From Acidisoma cellulosilyticum (GTDB lineage Bacteria > Pseudomonadota > Alphaproteobacteria > Acetobacterales > Acetobacteraceae): a stretch of DNA of 64,000 nucleotides. The notes under the pieces were generated by a model. The model was given only the letters and a program-made list of their open reading frames with translations. It was not told where the DNA came from and did not search any database. Of the stretch, positions 43,690 to 57,552 are shown in pieces. The position numbers and the translations under genes are program-made. Position 1 is the first letter of the stretch. Each line of letters starts with the position of its first letter. Where the stretch lies: the NCBI RefSeq assembly GCF_020621385.1, contig NZ_JAESVA010000002.1, forward strand, positions 310,001 through 374,000, written 5' to 3'.

Positions 43690-44398
43690 TGCGGTGCAGC
43701 AAAAAAATGCTCGTCGTTGATATATCAGGATGTGTGATCTCAAAAAACCGTTCTTGTCAGAAATTTTGGAAGTCTTTTCTAGACGATGCCATTTTGTCAG
43801 CAGGTTTTTTGCGATTTGGCTAGAGACTAGTTTTCGAATCCGCAATCATACTTGTCTCTTTTGCAGTCGGGCTAGGCCAGCAATGCCAGATACCCTATGG
43901 TTTTTGTTTTGTCTGATTTATGTAATTGCCTAGTCACTCCCCGACCTGTAGGTTTTATCAATTCAGTTTGAGGATCGCAGATAACTTTAACCCTTACCCT
44001 GGCTAAGTCTGGGACAAGCCCGGGCGTTGAGAAGGTTTCGCAAAATCCCGGCTTAAAGATCTAATTCTTTCGTCCAGCGTTTCCGAAAAACTAAGCCGTT
44101 TGGCGTCACTCTCTCGTGAGTCTCCTGGCTTAGTGACGGCTCTTGCTTGACGCATCGATACGATAAGGCATCCTAAGGAAAGGGAACTTTAACACTCAAA
44201 ATCAATTGCAACCGAATCAGCCTCAAGCAAGTAAGACTAATGCAGAGCCTGGCCTTCGCCGGTAATTGATAGTTTGACCTGTGCCGTTCTCTGACCGGAC
44301 TCACCTTAATCGATCGTTGGACGGCGATAGGTGGTCCAAAGCCCAGGCGGTTTATCGACTTGATGCCGGCCGTACGTTTTGTTCCAAGGATCACGATA
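43690..44398. promoter_or_regulatory. Long non-coding region upstream of second LuxR-type gene
   Basis: About 710 bp without a convincing gene and AT-rich in its first third. A stem ACTAAGCC (44090-44097) with GGCTTAGT (44127-44134) encloses a shorter ACTC/GAGT pairing, and could be a terminator or regulatory structure. AAGGA at 44386-44390 is the likely ribosome site for TTG 44399. Its length invites a search for a small RNA; I could not identify one. Confidence 0.5.
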
Positions 44399-45148
44399 TT
44401 GAACGAATTTTTTCAAGCCATCGTGTCGCCGCAAAATCAGGTGAGCGCCGCTGCGCCCTCATCCGACCGGATGGCATCGGCAGCGCAGATTCTCTGCGTG
44501 GCCCTGATTGACAGCCACCAGTTCACGCGGGAATGTTTCATCAGCGCCGCATTCTCGATGCAGCCGCTGATTGCCTTCACGCCTTTCTCATCCGTGGGCG
44601 ATTTCGCCGGCGGCTCAACCCAGTCGATCGATCTGGTCGTTTATGTTCATCACGGTCCGGCCTCGGCTGGGCTTGAGGATGTGACCGCCATCCTTCGCTA
44701 TGTTCCGCCGCGCTGCCTGATTATCATCTCCGACTGGCTGTCCGAAGAAAGCGGGCATCTGCTGCGGGAGTTCGAAGCGCGCTGCGCGGCCGTCGTTCAA
44801 GCCAGGAATTCCAGCCTGCAGAAGACCGTCTCGACGTTTTACCTCATCCATCACGGTCGCCAAGGTCGGAGGGTGCCACAGCAAGACCCGTGGATGCTGC
44901 AGCGCGAAACCCCGCCCATTCGCCCAGCATTTCCCTCTCGATCCGAAATTGCCGATCTGACAAGACGCGAACGTATGGTGCTGGAGCATGTCTGTCAGGG
45001 TCAATCGAATAAGGAGATTGCTGAGGCCCTGGTGATGAGCATCAGCACCGTCAAAGCGCATGTCCGCAATATCATGCAAAAAACCGGCGCAAGTAACCGG
45101 ATACAACTGGCGCTGAACGCGGACCGTCATAACGGTCAGCCGAGCTGA
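44399..45148 (+). CDS. LuxR-type regulator with receiver-like N-terminus, paralogue 2
   Basis: This 249-residue protein is a paralogue of the product of 34475-35221. The N-terminal LCVALIDSHQFTRECF and IDLVVYVHHG and the C-terminal LTRRERMVLEHVCQGQSNKE with MSISTVKAHVRNIMQK match in order and spacing. As in its paralogue, the receiver-like domain lacks an evident phosphoacceptor Asp after VVYVHHG. I chose TTG 44399 because AAGGA is 8 bp upstream and the first codons align with those of the paralogue; ATG 44363 is an alternative giving 12 more residues. A regulatory role in the surface locus is inferred. Confidence 0.8.
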   Translation: MNEFFQAIVSPQNQVSAAAPSSDRMASAAQILCVALIDSHQFTRECFISAAFSMQPLIAFTPFSSVGDFAGGSTQSIDLVVYVHHGPASAGLEDVTAILRYVPPRCLIIISDWLSEESGHLLREFEARCAAVVQARNSSLQKTVSTFYLIHHGRQGRRVPQQDPWMLQRETPPIRPAFPSRSEIADLTRRERMVLEHVCQGQSNKEIAEALVMSISTVKAHVRNIMQKTGASNRIQLALNADRHNGQPS

Positions 45149-45271
45149 CTTGACGAGCCTTTACGTGGTTTGATCCTGGCTTCTGCGCGGACCCTCTCCG
45201 GTTTTGGTCCAGGTTTTGCTTGCCTGTTGCGGATGCTAAAAAAACGCATTGGCATTCCGGCCGACCAAGAC

Positions 45272-46666
45272 ATGGTGCAATGGGCACCGAACCTGATCGG
45301 CCGAACCGGGCCGATCTACCGCGAATTGGCGGCGGCCATTGCCGCTGCCATCCGGGACGGGCGGTTGCTGCCCGGCGACCGCTTACCCACCCAGCGCGTT
45401 CTGGCCCAGAAAATCGGTGTCGACCTTGCGACCGTGACCCGCGGCTATGCCGAAGCGCATCGCCAGGGCCTGGTTTCGGCGACCGTCGGCCGCGGTACCT
45501 TCGTGCGCGCAGATGCGCCTCTTCTGCGACAATTGAGTCGCGGCCATCCGGTCATCGACATGACGATGAACCTGCCGCCTTTGCCGGCAGAGCCCGCCTT
45601 GCACGGCATGCTTCAGGACGGTTTGGCGCGAGTCTTACGCCGGCAGGATATTGCCGCCCTCATGACCTATCATTGGGACACGGGCAGCGCCGAGGACCGA
45701 GAGGCCGGCCTGTCCTGGCTTCTCCCCACGATGGGCCGGATAGACCCGCAGCGTCTATTGCTTTGCCCCGGCGCGCAGAGCGGCATGATCAGCGTCATCA
45801 CCAGCCTGGCGCGCGCGGGGGATATGATCGCGACCGAGCAGATGGCCTATCCCGGCCTAAGGGCGGCGGCCGCTCAGCTTGGTATTACGCTTCTCGGCGT
45901 CGGCATGGATGATGAGGGCATGCTGCCCGAGGAGCTGGACCGCATCTGTCATGAAAGCCGACCGAGGCTGATTTTCTGCACGCCGACCATCCAGAACCCG
46001 ACAACGGCGACCATGTCCATTGCCCGGCGGCAGGCGATCGCCGATATCGCGCGGCTGCATGAATTGCCCATTCTGGAAGACGACGCCTATGGCCTTTTCC
46101 CGACCGAGCCGCTGCCGGCCTTGGCGCAGTTCGCGCCGGAGCTTGTCTTTCATCTCGCGACTTTCGCGAAGACGCTGACCCCCGGACTACGCCTCGCCTA
46201 TCTTGTCGTGCCGACCTTAAGCCATGTCGACCGGCTGACGGCCGCTTTGCGGGCGACAGCGCAAATGGGCTCGGCGCTGATGGCCTCGCTCGTCACGGGA
46301 TGGATCAGAGACGGTGATGCTCAACGCCTGTTCAAGGCGATCCGGCAGGAGACGGCCGCCCGGCAGGAAATGGCCGATACGATCCTTGCCGGTCTGGACG
46401 GGGCGCGTCATCCGCATGGTTTGCATCTTTGGCTCAGGATGCCGCCGCATTGGCATTCTTCCGATTTCACGGCCTATGCCCGGCGGCATGGATTGGCTTT
46501 GGTGGCGGAAGACAGTTTCGCGGTTGATGGCACGACCCATGCCGGCGAGCATGTCCGCATCGCCCTTGGTGCGGCGGCGGATCGCGGTGCGCTCGCACAG
46601 GCCTTGATGGCCATCGAAGCGGCGCTGCGACGCCCCGTGCCGCAAGCCTATACGACCGTTATTTAA
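45272..46666 (+). CDS. MocR-type GntR/aminotransferase-like regulator
   Basis: This is a fusion of a GntR winged helix to a fold-type I PLP domain. In the 464-residue form the wHTH lies at about residues 15-80 (IYRELAAAIAAAIRDGRLLP, LPTQRVLAQKIGVDLATVTR). The aminotransferase-like domain has PLP Lys K300 in FAKTLTPG, and LEDDAYGLF supplies the Asp. MocR regulators sense PLP or an amino compound and bind direct repeats. ATG 45272 gives the usual MVQWAPNL start; ATG 45233 is also in frame. It lies just before the Nit1C cluster and is the prime candidate for its control. Confidence 0.88.
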   Translation: MVQWAPNLIGRTGPIYRELAAAIAAAIRDGRLLPGDRLPTQRVLAQKIGVDLATVTRGYAEAHRQGLVSATVGRGTFVRADAPLLRQLSRGHPVIDMTMNLPPLPAEPALHGMLQDGLARVLRRQDIAALMTYHWDTGSAEDREAGLSWLLPTMGRIDPQRLLLCPGAQSGMISVITSLARAGDMIATEQMAYPGLRAAAAQLGITLLGVGMDDEGMLPEELDRICHESRPRLIFCTPTIQNPTTATMSIARRQAIADIARLHELPILEDDAYGLFPTEPLPALAQFAPELVFHLATFAKTLTPGLRLAYLVVPTLSHVDRLTAALRATAQMGSALMASLVTGWIRDGDAQRLFKAIRQETAARQEMADTILAGLDGARHPHGLHLWLRMPPHWHSSDFTAYARRHGLALVAEDSFAVDGTTHAGEHVRIALGAAADRGALAQALMAIEAALRRPVPQAYTTVI

Positions 46667-46959
46667 CCGTTTCGAGACCTTGATATCACGAACACGTGAA
46701 CAACGCTGCCGCAATTTTAGTCAGCATCTCTGAGTGTGTTTATAAGGCAATTGCTTAATATATGATCTGTTGTGGTTCATAATTAATGCAACTCTTGTCC
46801 AGAGATCATTCAAATGCGGAAAATTGTCTGTACTCCTCATAAAATTGTCTGGGCTTGTCTGGCTTTTTTGCCCCACAATTGCCCTTCATTGTCGCGTTGC
46901 GGCGAAATTTTTCCGCGTGCTTATCTCCCCTCCGGAAACGGTGTCAGAGGAGACAAGAC
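46667..46959. promoter_or_regulatory. Promoter region of the Nit1C cluster
   Basis: About 290 bp, AT-rich, between the MocR gene and the cluster. AAAATTGTCTG occurs at 46820-46830 and again at 46841-46851, exactly 21 bp apart, and TTGTCTG recurs at 46855-46861, 10 bp further. Spacing in whole helical turns on the same strand is what a MocR dimer would need. A hairpin-forming GCGGCGAAATTTTTCCGC lies near 46910. The strong ribosome site CAGAGGAGACAAG precedes ATG 46960. Confidence 0.7.
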
Positions 46960-47442
46960 ATGCCGGTTGTCGAGAAGCCCAAGAATGAAATCGGTGATCA
47001 TCTCGTCGATTTCGAAGAGAAAGTCTTTGAAGATGTAAAGGCCGAGCCCGGGCAAAAGGCTTTGGTCACCTTCCATACGGTGGCGTTTGAGGGGTCAATC
47101 GGCCTCGTCAACCTGCTGCAGGCAACAAGGTTGCAGCGTAAAGGGTATGAAACCTCGGTTCTGCTCTATGGCCCTGGCGTCACCCTCGGCGTCATGCGCG
47201 GCTTTCCCCGCCTGGGTGACGAAGCTTTCCCCGGCCATCAGAACTTCAACAACCAGATCAAGAAGTTCATGGCCGAGGGCGGCAAGGTCTATGCCTGCCG
47301 CTTCGCGCTGCAGGCGCTATACGGCCATGGCGAAGGCGCGCTGATCGAAGGTATCCGCCCCATTAGCCCGCTGGATGTGCTGGACTGCGTGCTGCTGCAC
47401 AAGCGGGACAATGCCGTCGTCATCGATACCTGGACATTGTGA
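46960..47442 (+). CDS. MSMEG_0572/Sll0783 family protein
   Basis: The 160-residue protein matches the MSMEG_0572/Sll0783 family, the first member of Nit1 clusters. It has [36 protein letters not shown] and [15 protein letters not shown], a DsrE-like alpha/beta pattern. In Synechocystis, Sll0783 is tied to nitrogen starvation and polyhydroxybutyrate accumulation; its biochemical role is unresolved. ATG 46960 follows GAGGAGACAAG. The nitrilase gene begins 22 bp after its stop. Confidence 0.9.
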
Positions 47443-47464
47443 TCAAGGTATAGGGATCAACGCC

Positions 47465-48529
47465 ATGCCGCGCATCATCCGCGCTGCCGCCGCCCAACTG
47501 GCCCCAGTATTGGACAATGCAGACGGCACCGTCGAAAAGGTGCTGAATGCCATCGCGGATGCGGCGCGGCAGGGCGTGCAGTTCATCGTCTTTCCGGAAA
47601 CGATTATTCCGTACTACCCTTATTTCTCCTTCGTGCAGCCGCCGGTGCTGATGGGCCGCGAGCATATGCGGCTCTATGACAATGCCCCGACGGTGCCGGG
47701 TCCGGTGACGGAGGCTGTGGCCGCCGCCGCACGACAGCATGGCGTCGTGGTGGTCCTGGGCGTGAATGAACGCGACCACGGTACCTTATATAATGCGCAG
47801 CTGATTTTCGATGCCGACGGCAGCATGGTTCTGAAGCGCCGCAAGATCACGCCGACCTTTCATGAACGTATGATCTGGGGCCAGGGCGATGGGTCGGGTC
47901 TGCGCGCCGCGCAAACCGCCGTCGGTCGCGTCGGTGCGCTGGCCTGCTGGGAACATTACAACCCCCTCGCCCGCTACGCCCTGATGGCCGATCATGAGGA
48001 AATTCATGCGAGCCAATTCCCGGGCTCGATGGTCGGGCCCATTTTTGCCGATCAGATCGAAGTGACGATCCGCCATCATGCGCTGGAAAGCGGCTGTTTC
48101 GTCGTCAACGCGACGGGCTGGCTGACGGATGAGCAGATCAAAAGCATCACGCCCGATGCCGGTTTGCAGCGGGCTCTGCGCGACGGTTGCAATACCGCCA
48201 TCATCTCCCCCGAAGGCGTCCATCTCGCGCCGGCCCTGCGAGAAGGCGAAGGCCTGGTCATCGCCGATCTGGATATGACCCTCATCACCAAGCGCAAGCG
48301 CATGATGGATAGTGTCGGGCATTACGCGCGGCCCGAGCTTCTGCACCTCGTGCTGCGCGACGCGCCGGCCAATCCTATCGCGCGTGCAAGCGACGATTCC
48401 TTATCCTCTGCCGATTCATGGAGCAGCACCGATGCAGAACAGCCTTTCGGAACTCCGTCCCCCCTCTCTCCCGCCGTCGAACCGTCACCTGATTACCGAT
48501 CTGCAATCACTCGGGCTGCGGCTGGCTGA
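47465..48529 (+). CDS. Nit1-type nitrilase (Nit1C cluster)
   Basis: The 354-residue protein is a carbon-nitrogen hydrolase with the catalytic triad E45 ([10 protein letters not shown]), K127 ([10 protein letters not shown]) and C161 ([12 protein letters not shown]). The [11 protein letters not shown] loop and the ASQFPGSM segment are typical of Nit1/Sll0784 nitrilases. In Pseudomonas fluorescens NCIMB 11764 a homologous cluster is linked to growth on cyanide as a nitrogen source. Its last 98 bp overlap the radical SAM gene, in another frame; the C-terminal tail rich in Ser/Pro may be a result of that overlap. Confidence 0.93.
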
Positions 48530-49562
48530 TCCGGACGCGGGTGCGGCTGGCAGGCGCGGCGGCGCGGGACCTTCCGACCACAAGGCGATCACGCTCGGCG
48601 GGCAGACGGTGATGGTGCCGATCTATACCGGTCAGGCAGCGTCCTCACCTTTCGAGGCTGGTCTGCCGGATGATCTGGGGCGGCGCATCCTGCTGCGGGA
48701 CGGTGCGCCGGTCGGGCGTATCACCTTTCCCCGGCCGCCACGCTTCTATGGCATGCAGACGCCGGAAGGGATTCCCTATTGGAAGATCGCGGTTCTGCAC
48801 GGCGCGGATGTGCTGGCGACGACCGTGATGCAGACCTGTATTCGCTATACCGACCGGCGCACCGCCTGCCAGTTTTGCGCCATCGGCCAGTCGCTGGACG
48901 CCGGTCGCACCATCGCCCATAAGACGCCAGCGCAACTGGCGGAGGTCGCGCGCGCCGCTGTCATGCTCGACGGTGTCAAGCATATGGTGATGACGACCGG
49001 CACGCCGAATGTCATCGACCGTGGCGCCGGCCTGCTGTGCGACAGCGCCCTTGCCATCAAGGCTGCCGTCGATCTGCCCATCCAGGGCCAGTGCGAGCCG
49101 CCGCGCGACCATGCCTGGTTCGGCCGCATGCGTGAATCCGGCATCGATACTTTGGGCATGCATCTGGAAGCCGCGACCCAGGCCGTGCGCGCCCGCATCA
49201 TGCCGGGCAAAGCGACCGTCACGGTCGATCGGTATAAGGAGGCTTTCGCGGAAGCCGTGCCGGTCTTCGGGCGCGGTCAGGTCAGCACCTATATTCTGGC
49301 CGGTCTGGGCGATACGGCCGCCGAGATCCTGGCTCTGTGCGAAACGCTTGTGGCGATGGGCGTCTATCCCTTTGTCGTGCCCTTCATCCCCATCACCGGC
49401 ACACCTTTGCAAAACCACGCGCCGCCGCCACCGGAGTTCATGCATAGCGTCCTGGCGCCACTCGGCCGCATGCTGACGGAAGCCGGGTTGCGCGCCACAA
49501 ACGTGAAGGCCGGCTGCGCCAAATGCAGCGCCTGTTCCTCCATCGCCAGCTACGGGGGCTGA
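48432..49562 (+). CDS. MSMEG_0568 family radical SAM protein
   Basis: The 376-residue product has a radical SAM barrel whose cluster motif is C136-x9-C146-x2-C149 ([16 protein letters not shown]) in place of the classical Cx3Cx2C. Supporting segments are [21 protein letters not shown] and TLGMHLEA. A second triad C362-x2-C365-x2-C368 ([10 protein letters not shown]) closes the protein and may bind an extra cluster. It would generate a 5'-deoxyadenosyl radical to modify an unknown substrate in the Nit1 pathway. ATG 48432 lies inside the nitrilase 3' end; the upstream frame is shadow. Confidence 0.9.
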
Positions 49563-50110
49563 TGCGCATGTTCGACGGTCCCATCCCCCTCTTCATGCCC
49601 GGCGAATACCGCTTCACGCTGGCCTTGGACCCCTGGCAGATCGCGGCGCATCACGCCTTGCGCCGGCAAGTCTTCTGCACCGAGCAGCAGATCTTCAAAG
49701 ATGACGATCGGGACGCGACCGATGATGTCGCGACCCATATCATCGCCTATAGCTGCATTGCGGGCGCGCCGGATGAGATTGTCGGCACGGTGCGTATTCA
49801 TCAGCCCGAGCCCGGCCTGTGGTGGGGTTCTCGGCTCGCCGTCGCCGAAGAGCATCGCCGCCTTGGCCGGCTGGGGGCGGAGCTTATCCGGCTTGCAGTC
49901 TGCACCGCCCATGCGCGCGGTTGCCATACCTTCCTGGCCCATGTGCAAGCGCAGAACTTCTCCTTCTTCAGGCGCCTGCATTGGGATGGGCTGGAAAGCG
50001 TGATGCTGCATGGCCGACCGCACCACGTCATGCGGGCACAGCTGAACCATTACCCGCCGCATGGCCGCCCGGTCACTCATCTGCTGCGCCCTGTGAAGCA
50101 GGCCGCGTGA
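49562..50110 (+). CDS. MSMEG_0567 family GNAT N-acetyltransferase
   Basis: The 182-residue product is a GNAT-fold acyltransferase of the Nit1-cluster type. The N-terminal FTLALDPWQIAAHHALRRQVF, IVGTVRIHQPEPG strand and WGSRLAVAEEHRRLGRLGAELI (acetyl-CoA pyrophosphate loop with RRLGRLG) are clear. A His-rich C-terminus follows (GRPHHVMRAQLNHYPPHG). ATG 49562 overlaps the radical SAM stop by one base (TGATG), and its own stop overlaps the AIR-synthase-like start in the same way, so the genes are translated in sequence. The acyl acceptor is unknown. Confidence 0.9.
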   Translation: MRMFDGPIPLFMPGEYRFTLALDPWQIAAHHALRRQVFCTEQQIFKDDDRDATDDVATHIIAYSCIAGAPDEIVGTVRIHQPEPGLWWGSRLAVAEEHRRLGRLGAELIRLAVCTAHARGCHTFLAHVQAQNFSFFRRLHWDGLESVMLHGRPHHVMRAQLNHYPPHGRPVTHLLRPVKQAA

Positions 50111-51069
50111 TGCTGACGCAATCCCTGGCCCAATCGCTCCGCAATCTGCGGGGGCTGGCCCATAAGACCGATATCGCGGCTGTCGCGCGGCATCTGGGCA
50201 AGGCGCCGGAGGGCATTCGCCTCGGCGATGATTGTGCTGCCATCCCGGACGGTGACGGCTTTTTGCTCCTCGCGATCGAGGGTTTCGTGCCTGACTTTCT
50301 GAAGGCAGAGCCCTGGTTCGCCGGCTGGTGCGGTGTCATGGTCAATGCCAGCGATATTGCGGCCATGGGCGGCCGACCCATCGCCGTGGTCGATGCGCTA
50401 TGGAGCGCCGGTAATGCCGAGGCCGAGCCGGTGCTGGCCGGGTTGAAGGCAGCGGCGGATGCCTATCGCATCCCCGTCATCGGCGGCCATACCAATGCGC
50501 GCGCAAGCTCGGCCCAGCTCGCGGTCGCGATCCTCGGTCGCGCGACGAAGCTGCTGACCAGTTTTGACGCAAAGCCCGGTGAGGTCATCCTGGCCGCGAT
50601 CGATCTGCGCGGCGCCTATCATGACCCCTTACCCTATTGGGACGCGGCGACGCGCGGCGCCGACGCCGAGCGCTTGCGTGGCGATCTTGATACCCTTGCG
50701 CAGATCGCCGAAAGCGGGTTGAGCAAGGCGGCCAAGGATATCAGCATGGCCGGGCTAGTCGGCACGGCGCTGATGCTGGCCGAATGCTCTGGCATCGGCA
50801 TGCTGATCGATCCTCTCGCCGTCCCCCGGCCCGAAGGGGTCGCGCTGGATCGCTGGCTGAGCAGTTTCCCGAGTTTCGGCTTTATTCTCACCGCCACAGC
50901 AGACAAGGTTCCCGGCGTCATCGCGGCCTTCGCGGGTCGTGGCATCGCTTGCGCCGCGATCGGGCAATGCACGCCCGGCACAAAGCTTGATCTGCTGAAT
51001 GCGGACGGCACGACAGAGACTTTCTGGGACCTGGCGGACGCGCCCTTGATCGGCTGTGCGCCGATATGA
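50110..51069 (+). CDS. Sll0787 family AIR synthase-like protein
   Basis: The 319-residue protein belongs to the PurM/AIR-synthase superfamily, whose members bind ATP and phosphorylate amides or acids (PurM, PurL, ThiL, SelD, HypE). It shows the N-terminal RLGDDCAAI Asp-rich motif, VNASDIAAMGGRPIAV typical of PurM-like domain 1, GGHTNARA and a C-terminal domain with DISMAGLVGTALMLAECSG. The family role in Nit1 clusters is unproven; an ATP-dependent activation step is a reasonable inference. TGATG coupling joins it to the GNAT gene, and ATGA coupling joins it to the glycosyltransferase. Confidence 0.9.
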   Translation: MLTQSLAQSLRNLRGLAHKTDIAAVARHLGKAPEGIRLGDDCAAIPDGDGFLLLAIEGFVPDFLKAEPWFAGWCGVMVNASDIAAMGGRPIAVVDALWSAGNAEAEPVLAGLKAAADAYRIPVIGGHTNARASSAQLAVAILGRATKLLTSFDAKPGEVILAAIDLRGAYHDPLPYWDAATRGADAERLRGDLDTLAQIAESGLSKAAKDISMAGLVGTALMLAECSGIGMLIDPLAVPRPEGVALDRWLSSFPSFGFILTATADKVPGVIAAFAGRGIACAAIGQCTPGTKLDLLNADGTTETFWDLADAPLIGCAPI

Positions 51070-52202
51070 CCCGGCGCATCGCCATCCTTACCCATTCCAC
51101 CAATCCGCGCGGCGGCGTGGTCCATGCCATGCAATTGGCCGAGGCGCTTTGCCGGCAGGGCGAGGACGCAACACTCATCGCGCCCGCCCTGCCCGGTCAG
51201 CGCTTCTTTCGCGCGCCGCATTGCGAAACCCTGCTGATTCCCGCGGCGCCTGCCCAGACCACGGTCGCGATGGTGGAGACCCGCATCGGGGAAATTGCGG
51301 CCGCGATGCGCGGTCAGCGCTTTGACATCTATCACGCGCAGGACCCGATCAGCGCCAATGCGCTCGCCAATCTTCGAGCCGATGGCGCCATTCCGGGCTT
51401 TATCCGCACGGTGCATCATTTGGATGATTTCGCCGATGCGCGTCTGGCGCGTTGGCAGGACCGTGGCTGGCAGGCGGCGGCGATGCTGCTGACGGTCAGC
51501 CGGTTGTGGCAGGAAAAGCTTTCCCGCCTGTCAGGCCGTCATGTGCATCAGACCAGCAATGGTGTGGACCATCGGCGCTTCACGCCGCAGGGCGACCAAG
51601 GCGGTCAGGCATTGGGACTTCCCGACGGAAAATTCTTCCTCAGCCTGGGCGGGATCGAGCACCGCAAGAATACGCTCGGCGTGCTGCACGCCTTTCTGGA
51701 ACTGCATGCCACGCGCCCGGATGTGCGGCTTGTCATTGCCGGTGGCGCGTCGCTCCTCGATCACAGCTTTGCACACGGCGCCTTCGCGACCGTGTTGCGA
51801 GACGCGACACCGGAAGCGCGAGCGGCGGTGCGGGTTCTGGGCGTCATCGATGACAGCGCCATGCCGGCCCTCTATCGCGCTGCCCATGCGCTGGTCGCCC
51901 CCGCCTTCATGGAAGGGTTCGGGCTTTGCCCGCTGGAGGCGATGGCCTGCGGCACGCCCGCCATCGTCTCGGCCATTCGTCCCTTCACCGATCATATGGC
52001 GTATGATGAAGCGCTATTCGTCGATCCGCATGACCCGTCATCCATCGCCCAGGCCATGGCGCGGTCTTTGGACGAGGCCGAACATCGCCGCTTGTCGCAA
52101 CTGGGACCACAGACGGCCGCGCGTTTCAGCTGGGATCGTGTCGCCGAAGATCATCGCTGCCTTTATGAGGTTTTTGCCGAGGAGCACCTCTCCCATGCCT
52201 GA
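51066..52202 (+). CDS. MSMEG_0565 family glycosyltransferase
   Basis: This 378-residue GT4 (GT-B fold) protein starts with the nucleotide-sugar strand RRIAILTHSTNPRGGVVHAM. It continues with the KNTLGVLHAFLEL segment, and the donor-site motif EGFGLCPLEAMACGTPAIVS holds the EX7E pattern. It is the member found in extended Nit1 clusters. The start overlaps the AIR-synthase-like stop (ATGA), and its 3' end overlaps the next small gene by 8 bp. A sugar-conjugated intermediate or product of the pathway is suggested, but none is known to me. Confidence 0.9.
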   Translation: MTRRIAILTHSTNPRGGVVHAMQLAEALCRQGEDATLIAPALPGQRFFRAPHCETLLIPAAPAQTTVAMVETRIGEIAAAMRGQRFDIYHAQDPISANALANLRADGAIPGFIRTVHHLDDFADARLARWQDRGWQAAAMLLTVSRLWQEKLSRLSGRHVHQTSNGVDHRRFTPQGDQGGQALGLPDGKFFLSLGGIEHRKNTLGVLHAFLELHATRPDVRLVIAGGASLLDHSFAHGAFATVLRDATPEARAAVRVLGVIDDSAMPALYRAAHALVAPAFMEGFGLCPLEAMACGTPAIVSAIRPFTDHMAYDEALFVDPHDPSSIAQAMARSLDEAEHRRLSQLGPQTAARFSWDRVAEDHRCLYEVFAEEHLSHA

Positions 52203-52488
52203 AATGGAATTCTCCCTGCGCTGGCCGGATGGCAGCGAAAGCCGCTGCTATTCGCCGTCCCTGGTCGTCGAGGATCATCTGACCGTCGGCGAAACCTATC
52301 CGGTTCCTGACCTTGTCGCCCGCAGCCGCGCCGCCATGACCGAAGCCAGCCGCCGCGTCGCCGTCAAATTCGGTTTTCCCTGCAGCCGCGCCATGGCGAC
52401 GCTGTCGACCATCGAGCAGCGCGCCGCACAATGGCAGGCCGAGCCTGCCGCGGCAGTCACTGTCCTTTCCTTTCATCGCCTGACGTGA
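52195..52488 (+). CDS. MSMEG_0570 family small protein
   Basis: The 97-residue protein matches the MSMEG_0570 family, linked to nitrogen-starvation clusters. It begins with MEFSLRWPDGSESRCYSPS, followed by DHLTVGETYPVPDLVARSRAAM and a helical C-terminal half with CSRAMATLSTIEQRA. It may be a carrier or accessory factor. The start lies within the glycosyltransferase 3' end, and the flavoprotein gene follows 13 bp later. Confidence 0.88.
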   Translation: MPEMEFSLRWPDGSESRCYSPSLVVEDHLTVGETYPVPDLVARSRAAMTEASRRVAVKFGFPCSRAMATLSTIEQRAAQWQAEPAAAVTVLSFHRLT

Positions 52489-52501
52489 TGGATCAACAAT
52501 C

Positions 52502-53785
52502 ATGAATGCGCTTTCCCGCCTGTCTTCAGGCTCTGATCTGCCGCCCCATGTCTCCGTCGCCATTATCGGCGGCGGCCAGGCCGGGCTTTCCATGAGCTGG
52601 CATCTGCATCAAGCCGATATCGACCATGTCGTGTTGGAGCGGCACAGCGCCGGGCATAGCTGGCGGCATGAACGCTGGGATACCTTCTGTCTCGTCACCC
52701 CAAATTGGCAATGCCAGCTGCCGGGCTATCCCTATGCCGGGTCGGACCCGGACGGGTTCATGCTGCGCGATGAGATCGTCCGCTATATCGAAGGCTTCGT
52801 GGCCTCCTTCCCTGTGCCTCTGCATCAGGGCGTTTCCGTCCGCCGTCTGTCGCAAAACGGAGACGGCTATCTGTTGCAGACGGATCACGGCACCATGACC
52901 GCCGATCAGGTTGTAGTCGCGACCGGCGGCTATCATGACCCGGTGCGGCCGGACTGGTCCTACGCGATCGACCCGGCGATCACGCAGATCCATTCGCAGG
53001 AATATCTGAGGCCAGCGCAATTGCCGGAAGGTGCGACACTCGTTATCGGTAGCGGGCAATCCGGCTGTCAGATCGCCGAGGATCTGCATATCGCTGGCCG
53101 CGCAGTTCATCTTTGCCTGGGCGACGCACCGCGCGTCGCGCGTCGCTATCGCGGCCGCGATGTCGTCGCATGGCTGGACAGCATGGGCTATTACGACATG
53201 CCGGTGGATGCGCATCCGCTGAAGGAAGGCGTGCGCGACAATACCAATCACTATGTCACCGGGCGCGACGGCGGGCGGGATATCGATCTGCGCCAGCGTG
53301 CGCTGGAAGGCATGCTGCTGTATGGCCGTGCGGAAGGTCATGAGGCGGGTCGACTGGTCATCCGCCCCGGTCTGGCGGGCCTGCTGGATTCGGCCGACGC
53401 GACCTCCGAAAGCATCAAGACCAGCATCGATCGTTTCATCGACAAAGCGGGTGTCGAGGCACCGGCCGAGGCCCGCTATACGCCGGTCTGGACCCCGCAG
53501 ACGGATGTCTTGTCATTGGATCTGAAGGCCGCCGGCATTACCAGCATCGTCTGGTGCATCGGCTTCCGCTCCAACTTCCGGTGGGTGGATGTGCCGGTCT
53601 TCGACGGTCGCGGCATGCCGGGCCATAGACGTGGCGTCTCGACAACGCCGGGCCTTTATTTCCTCGGCCTGCCCTGGCTGCACACCTGGGGGTCAGGCCG
53701 CTTCTCGGGTGTCGCGCGGGACGCGGGTTTTCTGGCGGAGCGCATCGCGGAGCACGCGAGCGCGTCGGTCAGCGTCGATGCCTGA
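52502..53785 (+). CDS. MSMEG_0569 family flavin-dependent oxidoreductase
   Basis: The 427-residue protein is a class B-type flavin monooxygenase relative. It has an FAD-binding GGGQAGLSMSWHLHQ (GxGxxG variant) at the N-terminus, a second dinucleotide site VIGSGQSGCQIAEDL for NAD(P)H, and WRHERWDTFCLVTPNW near the FAD. The MSMEG_0569 family belongs to the extended Nit1 cluster and may oxidise an intermediate. The last 8 bp overlap the acyl-CoA synthetase start at 53778, giving translational coupling. Confidence 0.9.
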   Translation: MNALSRLSSGSDLPPHVSVAIIGGGQAGLSMSWHLHQADIDHVVLERHSAGHSWRHERWDTFCLVTPNWQCQLPGYPYAGSDPDGFMLRDEIVRYIEGFVASFPVPLHQGVSVRRLSQNGDGYLLQTDHGTMTADQVVVATGGYHDPVRPDWSYAIDPAITQIHSQEYLRPAQLPEGATLVIGSGQSGCQIAEDLHIAGRAVHLCLGDAPRVARRYRGRDVVAWLDSMGYYDMPVDAHPLKEGVRDNTNHYVTGRDGGRDIDLRQRALEGMLLYGRAEGHEAGRLVIRPGLAGLLDSADATSESIKTSIDRFIDKAGVEAPAEARYTPVWTPQTDVLSLDLKAAGITSIVWCIGFRSNFRWVDVPVFDGRGMPGHRRGVSTTPGLYFLGLPWLHTWGSGRFSGVARDAGFLAERIAEHASASVSVDA

Positions 53786-55583
53786 CGACACCCGCTACGA
53801 CAAAGCCATCGCCGCCTGGCGGTCGGATCCCGCCGGCTATTGGCTCGGTGCGGCGCGGGATATCGCCTGGCGGTGGGCACCGGAAACGGCCTTCCGTTTG
53901 CGCCCGAACGGCATGGCGGATTGGTTCGCCGATGGCGTGCTCAACATCACCGAAAGCGCTCTGGACAGACATGTCGCGGATGGGCGTGGCGCGCAGACAG
54001 CGCTGATCTGGGAAAGCCCGGCCTCGGGCGAGGCCGCCCGCTACAGCTACGCGGACCTGCTGGATGCCGTCGCCCGTTGTGCCGGTGCCTTCGCGTCCCT
54101 TGGTGTCACCAGGGGCGACCGCGTTCTGATCACCATGCCGCCGGTGCCGGAAACCGTCATCGCCATGCTCGCCTGCGCCAGACTGGGTGCGGTGCATGTG
54201 GTGGCCTTCGCCGGTTTCGCGGGGCCGGAACTCGCCAGCCGCATTGACGATGCAAGGCCGCGCCTGATCGTCACCGCAACCTGCTGCTACACTGGCAAGC
54301 GGCCGACAGCGCTATTGCCCTCCGTCACCGAAGCGCTTCTGCGTGCCGACCACAAGCCGGACGCCTGCCTGTTGCTGCAGCGCGCTGGCGCTCCCGCCAC
54401 GCCGCTGCCGATCCCAGTACATGATTTCGCAACCACGGTCGCTGGCGCAGCACCGCTCGGCGCTGTGCCGCTGCCGGCCACGTATCCGCTCTATATCCTG
54501 CATACATCCGGCACGACCGGTGCGCCGAAGGGCGTGCTGCGGGACCAGGGCGGCCATGCGGTCGCGCTGATGCGGTCCATGCGCGACGTCTATGACATGA
54601 AGCCTGGCGAGGTCTTTTTCTCGACCGCCGATCTCGGCTGGGTCGTGGGCCATTCCTACGGCGTCTATGCCCCGCTGCTCGCCGGCTGCACCAGCCTTCT
54701 CTATGAAGGCAGTGCCACGGCCACGCCCGACGCGGGGACGATCTGGCGCTTGGCCGCCCGCCATAAAGCGCGGATTTTGTTCACCGCACCCAGCCTTTTG
54801 CGGGCCCTGCGCGCCAGCGACCCCGATGGGCTTCACCCGGCCCGGGCCGATCTGTCGAATCTCGCCGCTATTTTCGTGGCCGGTGAGCGGGCGGAGACCC
54901 CGCTGCTCGACTGGGCGCGCGACGTCACTGGCCTGCCCGTGCATGACCATTGGTGGCAGACCGAAACCGGCTCGGCCATCGCCGGCAGCCTGCGCGGCTT
55001 CGGCATTGTAGCCGCCCAAGGCATCGGCCGCGCCTTGCCCGGCGCCGATCTCTGCGTTCTGTCACCCGAAGGCGAGACGCTGGCGCCGGACGAGGAGGGA
55101 GAACTCGCGCTGCGCCTGCCCTTGCCGCCCGGCTGCCTCACGACGCTATGGCAGGCGGAGGCGCGGATGGAGCAGACTTATCTCGACCGGTTTCCGGGAT
55201 TCTACCGGACCTTCGACCATGGGCTGATCAGTGCGGATGGCGAGGTCAAGGTGCTCGCCCGACTGGACGATGTTCTGAAGGTCGCGGGGCGCCGCATTTC
55301 CACCGGGCGGATCGAGGAAGTGCTGGCCCGCCACCCTTCCGTCATCGAATGCGCGGTCACAGCCAGGCCGGACGGACAGCGGGGCGAAGTGCCGGTCGCC
55401 TATATCGTGCGTCGTGACGACGCAATTTCCGAAAATACGCTGCGCGTCACGCTGATCGCGGCCGTGCGGGATGAGATCGGCGCGCTGGCGACGCTGCGCC
55501 AGATCGTCTTTTTGGACGAATTACCGCGCACCCGCTCAGGCAAGGTCCTGCGTCGCTTGCTGGCCGAACAGCCCGCAGCCTAA
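53778..55583 (+). CDS. Acyl-CoA/acetyl-CoA synthetase family (AMP-forming ligase)
   Basis: The 601-residue AMP-forming enzyme activates a carboxylate with ATP and CoA. It has the phosphate loop LHTSGTTGAPKGVLRD, STADLGWVVGHSYGVYAPLL (as in acetyl- and propionyl-CoA synthetases), HDHWWQTETGSAI, the GLISADGEVK hinge region and the catalytic C-terminal Lys in TRSGKVLRRL. ATG 53778 lies inside the flavoprotein 3' end, so it is part of the Nit1C transcript. I know of no standard role in Nit1; it might activate the acid produced by the nitrilase. A longer frame from 53589 is shadow. Confidence 0.92.
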   Translation: MPDDTRYDKAIAAWRSDPAGYWLGAARDIAWRWAPETAFRLRPNGMADWFADGVLNITESALDRHVADGRGAQTALIWESPASGEAARYSYADLLDAVARCAGAFASLGVTRGDRVLITMPPVPETVIAMLACARLGAVHVVAFAGFAGPELASRIDDARPRLIVTATCCYTGKRPTALLPSVTEALLRADHKPDACLLLQRAGAPATPLPIPVHDFATTVAGAAPLGAVPLPATYPLYILHTSGTTGAPKGVLRDQGGHAVALMRSMRDVYDMKPGEVFFSTADLGWVVGHSYGVYAPLLAGCTSLLYEGSATATPDAGTIWRLAARHKARILFTAPSLLRALRASDPDGLHPARADLSNLAAIFVAGERAETPLLDWARDVTGLPVHDHWWQTETGSAIAGSLRGFGIVAAQGIGRALPGADLCVLSPEGETLAPDEEGELALRLPLPPGCLTTLWQAEARMEQTYLDRFPGFYRTFDHGLISADGEVKVLARLDDVLKVAGRRISTGRIEEVLARHPSVIECAVTARPDGQRGEVPVAYIVRRDDAISENTLRVTLIAAVRDEIGALATLRQIVFLDELPRTRSGKVLRRLLAEQPAA

Positions 55584-55788: not shown

Positions 55789-56045
55789 CTTTTCGGGTAG
55801 GCCGATACGGGCACTAATTTGGGCGCCAGATACAGGATAGGCCCTTGGATCTGAGGATAGTCGAATAAAGCTGCGCGAGCACCCAGATCATCCCGCGTCA
55901 CGATGCACTGGGCGGGAAATTGGTTGGGATCCCAATTGAAATCCCCGAGGTATGTTATCGTTCCCGGCTTTACAACAAATTCGACGATGGCCTTCCAAAA
56001 CCTTTCTGGGCAAAGGTTGAATGAGGACAAGGCCGAACAACTCAT
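55785..56045 (-). pseudogene. Possible truncated gene next to the MITE-like element
   Basis: A minus-strand frame of about 86 codons, from ATG 56045 to a TAG formed by the MITE-like element end, reads VVKPGTITYLGDFNW and QCIVTRDDLGARAALFDYP. The PGTITYLGDF part resembles small secreted or lipoprotein domains, but I cannot name a family. There is no signal peptide, and the sequence stops at the element edge, so it looks like a remnant cut at its 3' end. It could equally be a spurious frame. Confidence 0.35.
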
Positions 56046-56163
56046 CCCTCTCCACGACGCCAAAGCCGCGTGGAATTACACAACACCGCCCAGGCCGCCA
56101 AGCTTGCGCAATGCCGGCTCATCCTGCAGCCTGCCCTTCAGCGACTGCCTGAAGGATGGCGTT

Positions 56164-57552
56164 TTGACTGATCCGAGCCTGCTTTCCGCCCAAGAGCTTG
56201 CCCAAGCCTATCGCAGCCGGGCCTTTTCGCCGGTTGACGCCATCGACGCGCTATTGGCGCGCATCACCCGTCTTAACCCCAAGCTGCATGCCTTTATCGA
56301 CCTCTATGCCGATGATGCGCGATTGGCAGCGGAAGGCGCGGACCGCCTGCTGCGGGCCGGGCATGATCTTGGGCCGCTGCACGGCATTCCTTTCGCCATC
56401 AAGGATCTGATCGCGGTCGCGGGCAGGCCCTATGCCGCCGGGTCCAAGATCCATCTCGGGCGCCCGGCCCGCGAGACGGCGCAGGTGGTGCGCAAGCTGG
56501 TGGCCGCCGGCGCCATCATGCTCGGCAAGGTCCATACGGTGGAATTCGCCTTCGGCGGCTGGGGCACCAATCCCCATCTGGGCACGCCGCGAAACCCTTG
56601 GGCAATGGATGTGCATCACACGCCCGGCGGCTCCTCCAGCGGATCGGGCGTCGCGGTCGGCGCGCGGCTGGCGCCGCTCGCCATCGGCACGGATACCGGC
56701 GGATCGGTGCGAATCCCCGCGTCCTTCAACGGCGTGACCGGGCTGAAGGTCACGCGCGGGCGGATCAGCAATCACGGGATCGAGCCGCTGAGCCCGACGC
56801 TGGATACGCCCGGCCCCTTGGCCCGTAGCGTGGAAGACGCGGCGATCATGTATCGCGCCATGCAGGGGCCGGATGAGGCTGACCCAATGACCTTCGGCAT
56901 TTTGCCCGAGGATCCTTTGCCTGGCCTGAAACGCGGCATCGCCGCGCTGCGCCTCGGCCGGATCACCGAAGCCGATAGCGGTAACATGTGGGACGCGGAG
57001 GTCGCGGCCGCGTACGAGGCTGCCATCGAGACTCTGGCGCGGCTGGGTGCGACCATTGTGCCGATCAGCCTGCCCGGCCCGTTTTCGGATTATGCCAGAC
57101 TGTCCCATGTCGTGATGGCGGCCGAAGCCTATGCGCTTCATGGGTCATTGGCGGAGGACGCGGCCAGGCCGATGGGTCCCCATGTCCGGGCCAGGATCAT
57201 GGCGGGCAAGGTCTCGGCCCAGGATTATCTGCAACTGCTCTGGCGTCTCCCCGCGATGCAAGCGGAATTTCTGGCGGCGATGGCGGGTGTCGACGCGCTA
57301 CTGACGCCGACCACGCGCTATCCCGCGCGCCCGGTGGAGGGGGTCGACGAAGCGACGGCGCCGAGCGACTTCACCCGCGTGGTAAACCTGCTCGGCCTTT
57401 GCGCATTGGCCCTGCCCGACGGGTTTTCGGCCGGCGGCCTGCCGCTGTCCCTGCAGATCATCGGCCGTCCCTTCGCCGAAGCCGAGGTGCTGCGCATCGG
57501 CTGGGCCTATCAGCAAGCGACGGATTGGCATCTGCGCACCCCGAACCTATGA
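56164..57552 (+). CDS. Amidase signature-family amidase
   Basis: The 462-residue enzyme hydrolyses an amide. It has K80 in [11 protein letters not shown], a Ser-rich [21 protein letters not shown] loop, and nucleophile S181 in [14 protein letters not shown]: the Ser-cisSer-Lys triad of the family. I chose TTG 56164, preceded by GAAGGATGG at proper spacing; a frame reaching back to 55903 has no family similarity. The stop overlaps the alkyltransferase-like start (ATGA). An amidase near a nitrilase cluster could finish nitrile breakdown, but the MITE-like element separates the two transcripts. Confidence 0.87.

Follow-up and report, generated by a model that had tools for sequence, protein, structure and literature searches.

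A complete Nit1C operon of Acidisoma cellulosilyticum ends in a PrpE-type acyl-CoA ligase that may supply the pathway with a propionyl thioester

The DNA analyzed here, which we refer to as the window, is a stretch of 64,000 nucleotides of Acidisoma cellulosilyticum (family Acetobacteraceae; contig NZ_JAESVA010000002.1, positions 310,001 to 374,000) from a host genome of 6.0 Mb. It holds a real and complete Nit1C operon with a conserved AMP-forming acyl-CoA ligase behind the last core gene. Our preferred explanation, to which we give a probability of about 0.5, is that this operon, probably controlled by a MocR-type regulator, has been extended by a dedicated C3 ligase that would feed propionyl-CoA, or possibly the acrylyl ester, into the Nit1C pathway. 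At other loci the slot of the ligase is occupied by an LnmK homologue of the Pnap_2097 family, with or without a methylmalonyl-CoA mutase, and these putatively convergent propionyl modules are the interesting part of the finding. Nit1C was described in 2005, has been linked to cyanide use, nitrogen starvation, NADPH balance and polyhydroxybutyrate, and is present from cyanobacteria to Klebsiella plasmids; in the literature consulted, no reaction is assigned to the core enzymes beyond the nitrilase step. Interchangeable modules at the end of the operon provide a concrete guess for a substrate, a propionyl thioester, and hint at an input for the chemistry of the cluster. No report of the ligase, Pnap_2097 or the mutase together with Nit1C was found in the open-access literature (PMC).

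The first-pass annotation of this DNA had described a complete extended Nit1C cluster in which eight named families lie in one tight run between positions 46960 and 55583. The proteins were compared with NCBIfam models by hmmscan, taking bits against the curated cut-off, and the eight families (seven invariant ones plus the glycosyltransferase) all passed, which is not a chance result. Failure of most genes to fall into their named families, one of two outcomes that would have refuted the first-pass annotation, thus did not occur. The genes of the operon are as follows:

46960..47442, + strand: MSMEG_0572/Sll0783 (NitB), named DsrE-like in the literature; TIGR04044, 275.7 bits (cut-off 109.85)
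47465..48529, + strand: Nit6803-family nitrilase (NitC), the genome-wide best match; TIGR04048, 567.3 bits (cut-off 502.6)
48432..49562, + strand: MSMEG_0568 radical SAM enzyme (NitD); TIGR04043, 571.7 bits (cut-off 303.7), model match from 48495
49562..50110, + strand: MSMEG_0567 GNAT N-acyltransferase (NitE); TIGR04045, 223.6 bits (cut-off 68.45)
50110..51069, + strand: Sll0787 AIR-synthase-like protein (NitF); TIGR04049, 438.4 bits (cut-off 321.3)
51066..52202, + strand: MSMEG_0565 glycosyltransferase; TIGR04047, 404.7 bits (cut-off 259.85)
52195..52488, + strand: MSMEG_0570 (NitG), a small alpha/beta protein; TIGR04042, 123.2 bits (cut-off 79.85)
52502..53785, + strand: MSMEG_0569 flavin-dependent oxidoreductase (NitH); TIGR04046, 644.7 bits (cut-off 498.35)
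53778..55583, + strand: PrpE-type AMP-forming acyl-CoA ligase; PF00501, PF13193 and PF16177, pocket residues V289, V290, A368 and W393

In gene order, the junctions are a gap of 22 bp, overlaps of 98, 1, 1, 4 and 8 bp, a gap of 13 bp, and a final overlap of 8 bp (53778-53785) between MSMEG_0569 and the ligase; the 98-bp overlap of nitrilase and radical SAM genes may be shorter, since the start of the latter is uncertain. The span, the tight run (junctions from -98 to +22 bp) and the 8-bp overlap with the ligase were thus described correctly, and the order is the conserved Nit1C order. Apart from the glycosyltransferase, the same order was seen in the loci of our family and phylum samples (see below), and in one named locus (L183) MSMEG_0569 has moved. 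The residues Glu, Lys and Cys of the nitrilase, which we take to be its catalytic triad, are all present by eye. Two cysteine motifs occur in the radical SAM enzyme, CX9CX2C, which we take as atypical, and a C-terminal CX2CX2C; their six cysteines are invariant in 14 aligned rows. The AlphaFold model of MSMEG_0567 (predicted local distance difference test, pLDDT, 93.2) has GNAT acetyltransferases as its top Foldseek matches, one of them CoA-bound. In MSMEG_0570, the WPD and YSPS motifs are invariant in the alignment and the model is very confident (pLDDT 96.5). We considered this protein as an acyl carrier and rejected the idea: the predicted model is alpha/beta and not a helical bundle, and Foldseek against the PDB gave no counterpart at E<=0.001. 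A PDB sequence search with MSMEG_0572 returned nothing convincing, and hence no mechanistic reading was drawn from it.

Radical SAM genes above the cut-off are present in 32 of 299 Acetobacteraceae genomes, and the surroundings of the 31 loci besides the window were mapped. With the window counted, the ligase follows MSMEG_0569 in intact form in 21 of the 32 and is interrupted in one; seven loci lack it though their downstream DNA was seen, and three end too soon. The interrupted gene (L038:10789-14084, cluster orientation) carries an insertion of about 1.6 kb. When 200 genomes of the order were searched, 22 more Nit1C genomes came to light, all Acetobacteraceae and all 22 with the ligase in place, some of them having radical SAM genes identical to those of mapped loci. 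Whether the ligase is a random neighbour, a check proposed with the first-pass annotation, can thus be answered across related genomes: it is not, with an intact copy in the slot in 43 of 54 Nit1C-bearing Acetobacteraceae genomes. On plasmids, the records bearing the radical SAM gene and those bearing the ligase coincide (17 Acetobacter, 8 Komagataeibacter and 1 Acidisoma, many being near-identical A. pasteurianus strains), and an annotated A. oryzifermentans plasmid carries, besides the eight core genes, those for a pyridoxal phosphate (PLP)-type regulator and an AMP-binding protein. The idea of a conserved added member therefore holds within one large clade. As a general member of Nit1C the ligase is ruled out, as it occupies the slot in 34 of 105 loci, 32 of which are from Acetobacteraceae.

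The ligase, at 601 aa, reaches no cut-off among the best 25 NCBIfam models listed. The best are PRK10524, propionate--CoA ligase (515.2 bits, cut-off 955), and acetate--CoA ligase models; the scores against the PrpE model TIGR02316 (483.3, cut-off 827.4) and the acetyl-CoA synthetase (Acs) model TIGR02188 (484.2, cut-off 724.95) are also too low. By sequence, the nearest solved structure is 5gxd (551.9 bits), taken here as the PrpE of D. shibae, and acetyl-CoA synthetases score up to about 334 bits. We numbered the acyl pocket by alignment to Acs structures, presumably that of Salmonella: V310, T311, V386 and W414 of Acs align with V289, V290, A368 and W393 of the ligase, which differs from Acs at two of four positions and shares V/V/A/W with 5gxd. 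Among 58 ligases, VVAW was found in 31 of 31 Nit1C-linked ligases and in 26 of 26 unlinked PrpE, and VTVW in the host's own Acs-like protein. This pocket tryptophan is reported to set acyl size (PMC10455477). The acyl pocket is thus of the PrpE type and not of the acetyl-CoA synthetase type, and the enzyme probably makes propionyl-CoA. It differs from PrpE proper in scoring below the PrpE cut-offs, in being shorter, in forming its own clade and in being bound to an operon.

The tree of the 58 ligases left out eight of the 39 linked ones (one interrupted, seven duplicates or near-duplicates). In it, all 29 Acetobacteraceae Nit1C rows are on one side of a branch with 100/99 support, apart from the 26 unlinked PrpE of the family. 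The placement of the two betaproteobacterial linked ligases, from a Burkholderiales bacterium (L154) and Oxalicibacterium faecigallinarum (L179), is unsafe in this tree because both meet the long Acs branch. A second tree, without Acs, contained 12 Acetobacteraceae Nit1C ligases, these two, nine of the 26 family PrpE and eight further PrpE. There, all 12 Acetobacteraceae rows form their own clade (100/100), and four unlinked PrpE from betaproteobacteria join L154 and L179 in one group (100/100). The L154 ligase is above the PrpE cut-off (899.5 versus 827.4), and the clusters of both loci lie among betaproteobacteria in the radical SAM tree. Since the two betaproteobacterial ligases group with PrpE of their own class and the Acetobacteraceae ones stand separate, the trees indicate that a PrpE-type ligase has entered the slot on at least two occasions.

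The content of the slot was compared over a pool of 126 loci: 31 from the family, 15 from the phylum (Nit1C occurs in 16 of 398 phylum genomes, the window's included) and the best-scoring 80 of 582 named loci, which lean to close relatives; the 22 loci from the order are outside these counts. Non-identical radical SAM genes define 117 loci, of which 105 could be judged (seven are without MSMEG_0569 and five have too short a tail). The slot holds the ligase in 34, Pnap_2097 alone in 14, Pnap_2097 plus methylmalonyl-CoA mutase in 13, and neither module in 44, and at none of the 105 loci do the ligase and Pnap_2097 occur together. In Acetobacteraceae the figures are 32 with the ligase, one with Pnap_2097 and seven with neither; outside this family, they are two, 26 (13 with the mutase) and 37. 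The apparent mutual exclusion is confounded by phylogeny; on the radical SAM tree, three changes were counted for the ligase, ten for Pnap_2097 alone and five for Pnap_2097 with the mutase. For the named loci, the search for Pnap_2097 used a single tblastn query and may have overlooked distant copies; for the family and phylum samples, the result agreed with that of a hidden Markov model search. In 25 of 27 loci, no more than 160 bp separate the start of the Pnap_2097 gene from the last core gene; in the other two, the distance is 1.1 and 1.5 kb. All 13 loci with the mutase are from Burkholderiaceae, and that of Caballeronia zhejiangensis is annotated as a Pnap_2097 family protein plus scpA.

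Pnap_2097 (TIGR04099, 301.7 bits; TIGR04098, 266.4 bits) matches the LnmK structure 4hzo with E 1.3e-13 and is, judged by sequence, an LnmK homologue. Tyr 62 (6x7l numbering), presumably of functional importance in LnmK, aligns with a tyrosine kept in 15 of 16 Pnap_2097 rows; the window itself has no Pnap_2097 gene. According to the title of one paper, LnmK specifies (2R)-methylmalonyl-CoA, and lnmKLM homologues are tied in the literature to propionyl-derived branches. Methylmalonyl-CoA mutase gives the same R isomer from succinyl-CoA. In whole-genome searches with TIGR04099, five of the 398 phylum genomes matched, three of them above 280 bits inside Nit1C (G388, G404 and G448) and two at about 131 bits in genomes without Nit1C; in the family, one of 299 matched (G053), again inside Nit1C. 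All four strong copies (>250 bits; three of 398 phylum genomes and one of 299 family genomes) thus lie in Nit1C, and the chance of three out of three is about 5e-5, given 16 Nit1C genomes in 398 and ignoring kinship. Among the best 40 of 55 plasmid records with Pnap_2097, 36 have a radical SAM match within 7 kb among the matches listed. Methylorubrum extorquens AM1 has both Nit1C and Pnap_2097 on its megaplasmid. Of the four plasmid records with no such match, three were inspected, and the stretch was without Nit1C genes: one encodes a fatty acyl-AMP ligase together with an acyl carrier protein, one is polyketide-like with a phosphopantetheine-binding protein, and one is a polysaccharide locus. 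These three are more distant LnmK relatives; in Nit1C, no carrier protein was seen. Two of three Burkholderiaceae mutases scanned are above the PRK09426 cut-off, the third (L140) being broken, and a particular Tyr and Arg, which we take to be methylmalonyl-specific, are kept in 13 of 13. A 2-hydroxyisobutyryl-CoA mutase, which would turn 2-hydroxyisobutyrate from acetone cyanohydrin into 3-hydroxybutyryl-CoA, was considered for these proteins and rejected, as the match is to methylmalonyl-CoA mutase.

A methylmalonyl-CoA mutase was found in 11 of 47 Nit1C genomes tested: in one of 32 Acetobacteraceae (G220, 467 bits), in nine of nine other Alphaproteobacteria and in one of six further genomes. 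Each of the three Pnap_2097 genomes from Alphaproteobacteria whose cluster lacks a mutase (G388, G404 and G448) has one elsewhere. Two Burkholderiaceae genomes with no module (G546 and G617) gave no mutase in the search, which fits with Pnap_2097 bringing its own mutase in this family. In the host genome, the search gave no methylmalonyl-CoA mutase, and at E<=1e-40 no second PrpE, only one Acs-like homologue (37%) besides the ligase; for this reason the LnmK-plus-mutase route looks closed to it. PrpE-type matches above 650 bits are present in 14 of 15 Nit1C genomes from outside Acetobacteraceae, Pnap_2097 carriers included.

We infer that all variants of the slot point to a propionyl thioester, because the LnmK homologue, with or without the mutase, is expected to make one from methylmalonyl-CoA, and the ligase pocket is of the C3 type. 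The ligase would convert propionate, possibly acrylate, to a CoA ester that enters the pathway as acyl donor. The GNAT protein MSMEG_0567 would be its likeliest acceptor, because it is the only acyl-CoA-type transferase among the core enzymes. The AIR-synthase-like enzyme, the radical SAM enzyme and the flavoenzyme could then act on the acylated intermediate. The steps might run from an N-acyl amide to, later, a nitrile; this is reasonable because enzymes of the AIR-synthase superfamily use ATP to activate amide-like oxygens, and HypE, which makes a nitrile, is one of them. The nitrilase would open this nitrile to an acid and ammonia. A tentative extension of this scheme is that Nit1C is biosynthetic at heart rather than a route of cyanide breakdown, requiring a propionyl unit that non-homologous enzymes (the ligase, the LnmK homologue, or the latter with its own B12 mutase) deliver from one slot, with the nitrile as an internal intermediate. 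The biosynthetic idea is not new here, because the record annotation of several of these genes already reads biosynthetic process.

Several observations weigh against propionyl supply. Neither module is present at 44 of the 105 loci, and three Acetobacteraceae genomes with no module (G086, G178 and G250) also have no PrpE-level match; three others (G027, G028 and G199) have an unlinked PrpE-type gene. The PDB name of LnmK, methylmalonyl-CoA:ACP, implies an acyl carrier protein (ACP) as partner, and no carrier protein was noticed in the Nit1C cluster, the MSMEG_0570 model being unlike a helical carrier. G053, of the same genus as the host, has Pnap_2097 with neither mutase nor PrpE found, so that its source of methylmalonyl-CoA is unclear, and its protein has His at the conserved Tyr position, occupied by Tyr in the other 15 rows. 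In the radical SAM tree, its cluster (L035) groups with Rhizobium-type clusters, and Pnap_2097 replaces the ligase; the genus thus holds two different versions of Nit1C. In G187 (L241:3301-5261), a remnant of MSMEG_0569 of 71 residues is directly followed by an intact ligase of the Nit1C clade, while the genome gave no radical SAM match; this ligase may serve a purpose apart from the cluster. Finally, unlinked PrpE-type genes are common: at E<=1e-130 and counting linked copies, 170 of 299 family genomes have a match to the ligase.

The first-pass annotation had taken the ligase as a sign that the pathway ends in a carboxylate, which is then converted to its CoA ester. The PrpE-like C3 pocket and the replacement by the LnmK homologue and mutase do not support this, since supply suits all three variants of the slot and capping of an end product suits the ligase alone; the idea could still apply if the nitrilase product were propionate or acrylate. 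In such a disposal scheme, the nitrilase would free a short carboxylate (propionate, acrylate or similar) along with ammonia, and esterification of this acid with CoA by the ligase would allow the carbon to be used or detoxified. The overlap of the ligase with the operon and a C3-type pocket that would take propionate or acrylate agree with it, as do a host PrpB above its cut-off, through which propionyl-CoA could be burned, and the use of D. shibae PrpE to make acryloyl-CoA from acrylate (PMC5651017). However, disposal leaves the LnmK homologue in the same slot unexplained, as it would run methylmalonyl-CoA back to propionyl, and the Pseudomonas nitrilase is said to use a 2-hydroxynitrile (PMC11049912), and the corresponding acid would be larger than expected for a C3 pocket capped by Trp; we regard disposal as rather doubtful.

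Another possibility is that a housekeeping PrpE, once caught by the operon, has kept its general role in propionate use. All 21 family genomes whose linked ligase is intact gave a single match at E<=1e-130 (four candidates scored per genome), which would fit, and so would the G187 ligase that outlived its cluster. The separate ligase clade with its long stem, the position directly behind MSMEG_0569 kept across genera, the second recruitment in betaproteobacteria and the presence of Pnap_2097 in the same slot elsewhere make such linkage by convenience unlikely. We judge it quite improbable that the N-acyl group is a temporary mask, from which a C-N hydrolase or amidase frees propionate for reactivation by the ligase. 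This recycling would suit both ligase and GNAT, two genomes of the genus have an amidase next to the ligase, a Rhodococcus version of Nit1C has two carbon-nitrogen hydrolases, and a putative amidase is reported for the mycobacterial version (PMC6039565). Yet no amidase was found in the examined span of 37 of 38 ligase loci, Acidisoma sp. PAMC 29798 included, and the LnmK homologue and mutase would be left without a role.

Upstream of the operon, two further features bear on the regulation proposed together with propionyl supply:

45170..46666, + strand (operon strand): MocR-type regulator with a GntR helix-turn-helix (PF00392) and an aminotransferase-like PLP domain (PF00155)
46820..46851, no strand: direct repeat AAAATTGTCTG, two copies (at 46820 and 46841) with a 21-bp pitch, upstream of MSMEG_0572

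Both MocR domains lie in one protein, whose nearest NCBIfam model is EhuR (420.9 bits, below the cut-off of 480). A MocR gene adjoins Nit1C in 105 of 110 non-identical loci showing MSMEG_0569: in 69 it lies upstream and divergent, in 32 upstream and co-directional, and in four downstream; it is absent from four and not placed in one. It is therefore a conserved member that the first-pass annotation had not mentioned. The direct repeat is a possible MocR operator. Pairs of TTGTCTG (<=1 mismatch) at 22 bp were found in 18 of 32, and at 21 bp in three of 32, ligase-type upstream regions, and pairs of TTGATCG (<=1 mismatch) at 11 bp in 38 of 83, and at 13 bp in 20 of 83, other upstream regions, against a mean of about 0.03-0.04 per spacing after mononucleotide letter shuffles, the sequences being related. 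Because MocR proteins generally bind amino compounds via PLP, an amine or an amino acid, and not cyanide itself, may act as the inducer. A LuxR-type regulator gene lies upstream of MocR (44360-45148); it is also present in another genome of the genus (G179, 77%) and was unseen in other mapped loci.

The nit1C operon (nitABCDEFGH) of P. pseudoalcaligenes CECT5344 and P. fluorescens NCIMB 11764 has the seven core families in common with the window, in the order 0572-nitrilase-rSAM (radical SAM)-GNAT-AIRS (AIR-synthase-like)-0570-0569. The window adds the ligase, and MocR lies where a different, sigma54-type regulator, NitA, is described for P. pseudoalcaligenes (PMC11049912); MocR of that species is stated to govern its cio/nit4 cluster. 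Nit1C is reported to be needed for cyanide or nitrile assimilation in Pseudomonas (PMC11049912). Nit1C with an inserted glycosyltransferase was already reported for Burkholderia and Rubrivivax in the original Nit1C paper (PMC1199592). The gpr cluster of Mycobacterium smegmatis (MSMEG_0565-0572) shares homologous families with the window; it differs in being controlled by GlnR and in having a putative amidase gene, and the text consulted names no ligase. Nitrogen-starvation control and an effect on NADPH/NADP are described for it (PMC6039565).

One further gene of the window lies downstream of the ligase:

55903..57552, + strand: amidase-signature protein (PF01425, 332.9 bits), with a true start probably near 56165

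A gene 85% identical to it directly follows the ligase in G179, and in the window it is set further apart; it is probably a genus-level add-on. Other recurring neighbours were sought by clustering open reading frames, which was noisy in high-GC DNA and partly caught antisense frames; it was replaced by homology mapping with chosen proteins, which may have missed further Nit1C partners. Cytochrome bd genes adjoin the cluster in eight of 117 loci, from acetic acid bacteria, 3' of the ligase in five (L112, L122, L041, L043 and L044) and 5' of a divergent MocR in three Gluconacetobacter loci (L121, L125 and L126), with CydA about 56% identical between the two arrangements. From their lengths, we take CydA (477 aa) and CydB (339 aa) of L122 to be of the cyanide-insensitive type. 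These neighbours support exposure to cyanide or the presence of internal cyanide and are a point for the cyanide reading. The Nit1C radical SAM gene was also found on 373 Klebsiella and 30 Escherichia plasmid records, and many of the listed rows are from patients.

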